Below are positions 43,981-48,868 of a DNA stretch of 64,000 nt, piece after piece. The notes beneath the pieces were generated by a model that made no database searches, was not told the origin of the DNA, and saw only the letters and a list, made by a program, of their open reading frames with translations. The DNA is from Candidatus Planktophila versatilis (GTDB taxonomy: Bacteria; Actinomycetota; Actinomycetes; Nanopelagicales; Nanopelagicaceae): contig NZ_CP016778.1 in assembly GCF_002288265.1 (NCBI RefSeq), forward strand, positions 310,001-374,000, written 5' to 3'. Within the stretch, counting starts at the first letter, position 1; each line of letters starts with the position of its first letter. Both the position numbers and the translations under genes were made by a program.

Positions 43981-47068
<3,088 letters not shown>

Positions 47069-47074
47069 TAATCT
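47069..47074 (+). promoter_or_regulatory. -10 hexamer, leaderless start of 39-codon gene
   Basis: TAATCT, directly after the ligA stop, ends 7 bases before the ATG at 47082. Confidence 0.5.
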
Positions 47075-47081
47075 TCATCCC

Positions 47082-47201
47082 ATGTTAAGACTTAGTGAAG
47101 AAGCGACCCGGGTACTTCCAATGCCTCCTTACGCATTTGGACTTGTTGCATTTGGGATTTTCGGCTTCCTTCTCTACATCACTCTTCGCTTAGATAAGTA
47201 A
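47082..47201 (+). CDS. Small single-pass membrane protein, 39 residues
   Basis: A short gene in the ligA-nadD gap. It starts MLRLSEEATRVLPMPPYAFG, continues with one hydrophobic helix of about 18 residues, and ends in a short LRLDK tail. The LPMPPYAFGL motif before the helix resembles small proteins upstream of nadD in other actinobacteria, as far as I recall. It has a leaderless-type promoter, and its stop lies 5 bases before the nadD start. Function is unknown. Confidence 0.7.
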   Translation: MLRLSEEATRVLPMPPYAFGLVAFGIFGFLLYITLRLDK

Positions 47202-47206
47202 CGCCC

Positions 47207-47758
47207 TTGCGAGTAGGGCTATACGGCGGCACCTTTGACCCGATTCATAACGGGCACGTTCACGTCATTGAACAATTAATTGGGCGCAATATTGTTGATC
47301 GCCTGCTCGTTGTGCCAGCCGGACAACCGCGACTTCGCGAACATGAACCGAAGGCAACCGGGGCTGAGCGCCGGCAGATGTGTCAGTTAGCAGTTAATTC
47401 TTTAGCACCAGAAATTAAAAGCAAGGTGGAAGTTAATCCGATTGAAGTATTGCGCGAGGGCCCGAGCTACACCATTGATACCGTGGAAGCAGTTGCCCAG
47501 ACCTACCCAACAGATTCCATCTTTGTCGTCGTGGGCACCGATGCCTATACCAATATCGATCACTGGCATCGCGCTACTGAGCTCAAAAAAATGGTTGAGT
47601 TCGTTGTGATTGATCGCCCAAATTTTCCTGGCACGCCTAACCTTGATGTCGATGCCATTGCCGTGTCGGCAACCCAGATCCGCGAACACCATTCTGATGA
47701 AGTACCCGCAGCAGTTGCTGCATATATAAAGGAGCACAATCTCTATGCCAGCAAGTAA
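47207..47758 (+). CDS. nadD: Nicotinate-nucleotide adenylyltransferase
   Basis: Makes deamido-NAD from nicotinate mononucleotide and ATP. GGTFDPIHNGHVHV carries the HxGH nucleotidyl transferase motif and VSATQIREH the second signature. The length of 183 is a compact NadD. TTG at 47207 is the only usable start, since a TAA in the same frame lies at 47195. It probably depends on coupling with the small upstream gene. It overlaps rsfS by 14 bases. Confidence 0.93.
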   Translation: MRVGLYGGTFDPIHNGHVHVIEQLIGRNIVDRLLVVPAGQPRLREHEPKATGAERRQMCQLAVNSLAPEIKSKVEVNPIEVLREGPSYTIDTVEAVAQTYPTDSIFVVVGTDAYTNIDHWHRATELKKMVEFVVIDRPNFPGTPNLDVDAIAVSATQIREHHSDEVPAAVAAYIKEHNLYASK

Positions 47759-48119
47759 AGCCTGCGTTGAACGCACCCAAATTGCCGCTCGCGCTGCTGC
47801 CGATAAATTCGGAACCGAACTTGTCGCCCTCGATCTTTCGGAGCAATCAGTATTAAGTGAAGTCTTTCTGATTGTCACTGCCACCAATACCAAGATGGTT
47901 GATTCGATCGCCGATGAGGTGGAAGAGAAGTTACGTCTTGCTGGTGATAAGCCACTACGGCGTGAGGGCACCGCGGAATGGATTTTGCTTGATTACTCAG
48001 ATCTCGTTGTGCACATTCAGTCCAGTGAGCTTCGTCGCTACTACATGCTCGATCGGTTGTGGAATGACTGCCCCAAGATTGAGTTAGAAGTGGTCAAAGA
48101 AGAGGTTGCACGTGGGTAA
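47745..48119 (+). CDS. rsfS: Ribosomal silencing factor RsfS
   Basis: A 124-residue protein that binds L14 and blocks joining of ribosomal subunits in slow growth. DLSEQSVLSEVFLIVTATN, RREGTAEWILLDYSDLVVHI and YYMLDRLWNDCP are family marks. A good ribosome binding site AAAGGAG lies about 10 bases ahead, inside nadD. The order nadD-rsfS-phosphatase matches mycobacteria. Confidence 0.94.
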   Translation: MPASKACVERTQIAARAAADKFGTELVALDLSEQSVLSEVFLIVTATNTKMVDSIADEVEEKLRLAGDKPLRREGTAEWILLDYSDLVVHIQSSELRRYYMLDRLWNDCPKIELEVVKEEVARG

Positions 48120-48794: not shown

Positions 48795-48867
48795 GGGGAT
48801 ATGGCGCAATTGGTAGCGCGCTTCCATGGCATGGAAGAGGTTAGGGGTTCGATTCCCCTTATCTCCA
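48795..48867 (+). tRNA. tRNA-Ala (GGC)
   Basis: GGGGATA (48795-48801) pairs with TATCTCC (48860-48866) with one G-U pair; discriminator A is at 48867 and no CCA is encoded. The anticodon stem CTTCC/GGAAG holds loop ATGGCAT, giving GGC at 48828-48830. The A32-U38 pair is the known peculiarity of bacterial tRNA-Ala(GGC). Only one base separates the mature 3' end from the leuS start codon. Confidence 0.95.
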
Positions 48868-48868
48868 C

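Follow-up and report, generated by a model that had tools for sequence, protein, structure and literature searches.

Some small bacterial membrane proteins, such as CydX, KdpF and AcrZ, are single-pass subunits or regulators of fewer than 50 residues with one helix, and the microprotein described here, which is likewise below 50 residues and has one helix, is set beside them by description. In mycobacteria, leaderless small upstream ORFs of 5-50 amino acids have been described that are often coupled to the annotated gene (Shell et al. 2015, PMC4633059). TA-led leaderless actinobacterial genes carry TANNNT about 12 bp before the start (PMC3160421), and in S. lividans 88.7% of the spacers between the -10 box and the transcription start site are 5-7 nt (PMC8079986). 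The gene studied here resembles both groups. The last two papers are surveys, unlike the present case of a single gene, and nadD is absent from the main text of the latter. Here we analyse a stretch of 64,000 nucleotides of Candidatus Planktophila versatilis (contig NZ_CP016778.1, positions 310,001 to 374,000), referred to as the window, in which a gene of this kind lies between ligA and nadD.

A conserved membrane microprotein between ligA and nadD

Positions 47082-47201 of the window encode a real 39-residue single-pass membrane protein, MLRLSEEATRVLPMPPYAFGLVAFGIFGFLLYITLRLDK, which is 100% identical in the chromosome of Candidatus Planktophila versatilis MMS-IA-79. The features of the locus are as follows.

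45047-47068, forward strand: ligA, the upstream neighbour; its stop TAG (47066-47068) lies 13 nt 5' of the microprotein ATG
47069-47074, forward strand: TAATCT, -10 box of a putative leaderless promoter, 7 nt before the ATG
47082-47201, forward strand: microprotein gene, ATG at 47082 to TAA at 47199-47201, 39 codons plus stop
47115-47141, forward strand: LPMPPYAFG segment, residues 12-20; L12, P13 and G20 are invariant in alignment A3
47127-47195, forward strand: predicted membrane helix, residues 16-38, from AlphaFold2, hydropathy and flank charges
47202-47206, forward strand: spacer of 5 nt from the microprotein stop to the nadD start, in which no Shine-Dalgarno (SD) motif was seen
47207-47758, forward strand: nadD, with a TTG start at which ribosomes may reinitiate
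47745-48119, forward strand: downstream neighbour, presumably rsfS (named from the sequence), with an ATG start and an AAGGAG motif, overlapping the nadD end

The flanking ligA and nadD were identified by Pfam and NCBIfam, and the overlap between nadD and rsfS is 14 nt (window 47745-47758). Further downstream, the last base of a tRNA-Ala (GGC), which occupies window 48795-48868, immediately precedes GTG 48869, the first of the leuS starts listed, so that leuS may start later than this codon.

The first-pass annotation had proposed an overlooked short frame at this position, and conservation confirms it. A protein search of 60 genomes matched the microprotein in 29 of the 37 genomes of the genus, its own included, and the eight genus genomes without a match are just 56-84% complete; among family genomes at least 95% complete it is present in 60 of 66. 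From 138 coding sequences of 138 loci, 106 are distinct, and in all 50 non-overlapping nearest pairs drawn from these, dN is smaller than dS, the loci used for counts here and below being phylogenetically non-independent. Rather than lying near 1, pN/pS is 0.39 when the 50 pairs are pooled, and over the equal-length pairs (n=33) it is 0.17 in frame versus 1.21 and 3.59 when the frame is shifted; among the 37 closest pairs, with dS no higher than 0.3, the median is 0.064. Differences at the three codon positions number 329/205/571. In alignment A3, which holds 33 sequences (the window protein and 32 of 76 loci), E7, R10, L12, P13, G20, F24, L31, Y32, L35, R36 and D38 are invariant.

It is well supported by the conserved -10 box, from which the start site is deduced, that the microprotein is made from a leaderless mRNA, as had also been proposed in the first-pass annotation. 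TANNNT lies 5-9 nt 5' of the chosen ATG in 102 of the 106 distinct loci, or in 105 if another nearby in-frame ATG is allowed, versus 338 of 10,596 other ATGs (3.2%) at the same spacing in the same loci. The distance from the -10 box to the ATG is 6 or 7 nt in the first 29 loci of the genus. A search for a promoter with a match to the consensus sigma-70 -35 element found none, so that it is the conserved -10 box that supports the promoter call. An SD-like 4-mer is present upstream of the microprotein in 24 of 106 loci; the six inspected in the genus lie within the TAGGAT hexamer itself. Among 20 more distant class loci judged by eye, TANNNT occurs at this place in five and an SD-like motif in at least eight, and leaderless initiation is therefore not class-wide.

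The predicted membrane helix, a further claim of the first-pass annotation, is likewise supported: AlphaFold2 gives one helix at residues 16-38 (mean pLDDT by tens 59, 89, 98 and 93), and hydropathy reaches its maximum of 2.04 over residues 17-35. By the positive-inside rule, the flank charges suggest that the N-terminus would lie outside and the C-terminus inside. Thirteen proteins chosen from the 20 class proteins have an acidic or neutral stretch ahead of the helix and a basic or neutral one behind it; the family shows a small difference, with median charges of -1 (N flank) and 0 (C flank), and the C flank equals or exceeds the N flank in positive charge in 80 of 93 distinct proteins.

No function by homology emerged from the Pfam, NCBIfam and PDB searches. 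The window protein matched zero families of Pfam or NCBIfam at E<=10. Matches of 25 relatives to Pfam were weak and scattered, the best being MRAP (E=0.00072, one member) and Hol_Tox (E=0.0026, one member), and the best to NCBIfam was LrgA (E=0.013, three members). An assignment as a holin-like toxin, the basis of which was the Hol_Tox match of that one relative, was set aside. No PDB profile match reached E<=0.001; the best, to PDZK1-interacting protein 1 (E=0.033), covers profile residues 21-39 only. The suggestion that the gene may be widely missed was checked against two family libraries, Pfam and NCBIfam, neither of which appears to contain it. Among the papers listed in literature searches, none was seen to deal with a short gene ahead of nadD in actinobacteria.

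Start codons of nadD and possible coupling to the microprotein

The first-pass annotation had further noted a stop 5 bases before a TTG nadD start that has no alternative. This holds: TTG 47207 is the first ATG, GTG or TTG codon in the nadD frame of the window. Among the 106 distinct loci of relatives, nadD is the downstream neighbour in all 106 and ligA the upstream neighbour in 105, and the nadD start is TTG in 78, ATG in 10 and GTG in three, with no canonical codon in 15 (an earlier count over a narrower range gave 77, 8, 3 and 18). For reference, UUG accounts for 2,468 of 68,906 reconstructed ancestral starts, or 3.6% (PMC5622118; total summed here from 61,358, 5,080 and 2,468). Of the 91 loci with a canonical nadD start, 69 have it at most 9 nt beyond the microprotein stop, counting also starts that fall as far as 20 nt within the microprotein gene, and the other 22 have it more than 9 nt from that stop. 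An SD 4-mer precedes none of 88 nadD starts versus 55 of 100 rsfS starts. Since TANNNT precedes just 3 of 91 nadD starts, which is the control rate, nadD does not appear to be preceded by its own leaderless promoter. ATG is used at nadD in 3 of the 69 loci with a short gap versus 7 of the 22 with a long gap (Fisher p=0.0015, uncorrected for kinship), and in 10 of 106 loci with the microprotein versus 5 of 5 without it, these five coming from one genus and not being independent. At the microprotein-nadD junction of the mRNA, no structure was found in excess over shuffled sequences (z 0.21).

In 15 of the 106 loci (L036, L049, L050, L097, L098, L099, L100, L103, L104, L106, L112, L124, L128, L129 and L242) the stretch from the last in-frame stop to the GGTFDP motif contains no ATG, GTG or TTG, except for a TTG directly ahead of the motif in L106 and L124. 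Their nadD frames are complete, with 189-193 codons, and in all of them ATC or ATT occurs close to the microprotein stop, at positions ranging from a 1-nt overlap with it to 15 nt beyond. In two loci the following canonical codon falls at residue 7, namely the TTG of L106 and L124, which would retain the GGTFDP motif; in the other 13 it is at residues 22-62, and a start there would lose the motif.

A genus-by-genus sampling, which has some genomes in common with the 106-locus count, found no canonical nadD start within 16 codons in any examined genome of g26 (3/3), g27 (9/9), g28 (2/2), g29 (3/3) and g284 (1/1); in L056 (g28), neither a canonical start nor ATC, ATT, ATA or CTG was present in the range searched. 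Canonical candidates were TTG 45, ATG 4 and GTG 2 in g1, ATG 3 in g285, GTG 1 in g287 and TTG 1 in g288. The candidates of g25 were TTG 3, GTG 1 and ATG 6 (five of these six without the microprotein), with one case without the motif, and those of g286 were TTG 2, located inside the microprotein.

Public genome records may annotate the nadD genes of the 15 loci wrongly. The nadD gene of five or more genera of Candidatus Nanopelagicaceae might have given up a canonical start codon and depend solely on reinitiation, at AUC or AUU (at UUG in Planktophila), by ribosomes that have translated a conserved membrane microprotein, a tentative proposal that we place somewhat below even odds. If it were true, NAD synthesis would be tied to the production of a membrane protein. 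Gene callers that admit only ATG, GTG and TTG would cut nadD short in certain abundant freshwater bacteria, removing GGTFDP in 13 of the 15 loci, and such truncated calls could make these bacteria look NAD-deficient.

Six family genomes at least 95% complete are without the microprotein, among them G601, which is also without a nadD match. In G219, G245, G301, G325 and G610, all of g25, the microprotein is missing and nadD lies directly behind ligA, with its ATG overlapping the ligA stop. Because one of the five (L222) has AGGAGG before the nadD ATG, not all of them would need coupling. It thus seems from these arrangements that nadD may be coupled to whatever frame precedes it and that the microprotein can be lost. 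The proposal that the microprotein may be needed for nadD translation is supported as coupling in cis inside the family, where nadD has TTG or no canonical start, no SD motif and a start near the preceding stop; as a general rule it fails, given nadD without the microprotein in other orders and in these five family genomes. That the microprotein frame would be required in cis for nadD translation within the family is well supported by this comparison of loci.

Distribution across Actinomycetes and separation from nadD

Two profiles were used beyond the genus. Profile A1 is made almost wholly of genus sequences, and when 20 of its class hits were fetched, nadD was downstream on the same strand in all 20. 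Profile A2, built from 25 sequences, was run on 128 class genomes, ten of which had contributed sequences to it, and the hits were set against nadD positions. They lie upstream of nadD on the same strand in 46/46 cases at E<=1e-10, 63/63 at E<=1e-6 and 75/77 at E<=1e-3; 53 of the 63 at E<=1e-6 are from genomes outside the profile. At E<=0.0014, A2 covers 77 of 126 genomes of class Actinomycetes with nadD. We read the upstream gap in 38 profile-negative class genomes (11 others were left out) and found four diverged homologues (L263-L266); no plausible hydrophobic short frame upstream of nadD was found in the remaining 34, among which are counted two whose hydrophobic frames of 356 aa (L184) and 159 aa (L262) were judged spurious. 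The microprotein occurs in 23 of 34 class families sampled. Neither Pfam nor NCBIfam thus appears to include this family, although it extends through much of the class and all its profile hits at E<=1e-6 adjoin nadD.

No credible microprotein was found in 81 genomes of the order of G039, where profile hits in six genomes fell in frames of 389-537 aa and were judged to be chance, as were four hits outside class Actinomycetes in frames of 442-661 aa. The phage records searched gave no match to the microprotein, and 19 pattern matches in IMG/VR yielded no confirmed relative. Five MAG records titled Bifidobacterium breve (L070, L083, L084, L092 and L114) contain a close relative of the microprotein, 44-64% identical, and these labels look wrong. 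The proteins of A2 range from 38 to 78 residues, and 3 of 25 (L140, L144 and L146) have His-rich C-terminal tails, which are perhaps metal-binding. In L136 and L149, two distant class relatives that were checked, the upstream gene encodes an aldehyde-dehydrogenase-family protein and is read as proA.

The spacing to nadD is variable across the class. The microprotein profile ends 14-2365 nt before the nadD profile starts, so that a stop near the nadD start is not the rule across the wider class. Start codons cannot be compared there in the same way because class NadD proteins often have an internal Met before GGTFDP; a second count, over 67 deduplicated class loci, placed a canonical nadD start upstream in 65, at a distance exceeding 25 codons in three of these. 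For 9 of the 77 class hits, nadD is 0.9-2.4 kb away. Three of the class loci, L141, L147 and L154 of family f28, have about 1.4 kb between the microprotein and nadD, filled by an opposite-strand gene, which in L141 tested positive for EAL and HDOD domains and in L147 and L154 is alike by eye. Their microproteins score E=4.1e-9, 1.0e-6 and 1.7e-8 with A1, which excludes them (the E-values are lower with A2, which includes their sequences). Since a gene on the opposite strand separates the microprotein from nadD, coupling cannot explain its conservation in these three loci.

Weighing a proposed dual role, and comparison with known systems

The reading that we favour, with a probability of about 0.68, is that the microprotein has a dual role, a function of its own in trans and coupling in cis to nadD in Candidatus Nanopelagicaceae. 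A single-pass membrane microprotein would be translated from a leaderless mRNA whose 5' end is its own ATG, and would act in trans, a role that we propose to account for the conservation of its sequence over much of the class. Ribosomes ending at its stop would reinitiate at the weak nadD start, usually a few bases on; this start would be TTG or a near-cognate ATC or ATT, in either case without an SD motif.

If the frame were simply a translational leader for nadD and its peptide inactive, one would expect what is seen in nearly every good hit, a frame adjoining nadD, together with nadD starts that are weak and without SD motifs, and a coupled leaderless small ORF with an unconserved sequence has indeed been described in mycobacteria (PMC4633059). 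However, the strong amino-acid selection on the peptide implies that it does more than couple. The distance of nadD in 9 of the 77 class hits, where an opposite-strand gene intervenes in the three loci that were read, also speaks against a leader with an inactive peptide, which we regard as unlikely. We consider equally improbable the converse, a trans-acting membrane protein whose place in one operon with nadD is a matter of history, with coupling immaterial. The persistence of nadD without the microprotein in other orders and the intervening gene in three loci of one family would be in keeping with such a protein; yet shared history does not account for the 15 of 106 nadD genes that have ATC or ATT near the stop and no canonical start upstream of the motif, nor for the contrast in nadD ATG starts between 10 of 106 loci with the microprotein and 5 of 5 without (the five from one genus). 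A dual role fits best because an inactive leader conflicts with the selection data and a function in trans alone with the start codons.

Fusion of the microprotein to NadD by frameshifting or stop readthrough would accord with several loci without a canonical start in which the nadD frame stays open when followed back through the microprotein stop. However, L098 and L112 have a further in-frame stop between the two, and since nadD occupies frame 0, 1 or 2 relative to the microprotein among relatives, fusion cannot be the general answer and is very improbable. The microprotein is a short, testable target for experimenters, including in relatives whose large genomes suggest that they resemble Streptomyces.

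Among described systems, the AUU-started pncA of Borrelia (PMC13398362) is similar in that it is an NAD-pathway gene with a non-canonical start, and its database annotation is truncated. It concerns another enzyme and another phylum, and its start is backed by experiments, whereas that of nadD is supported by comparison. The mycobacterial small ORFs (PMC4633059) are similar in being leaderless and placed as the first gene before an annotated gene, to which they are often coupled, and some are conserved between two species. In contrast to what is described for them, the small gene here encodes a membrane protein conserved over many families, and the start of the nadD coupled to it would be TTG or, apparently, ATC or ATT.
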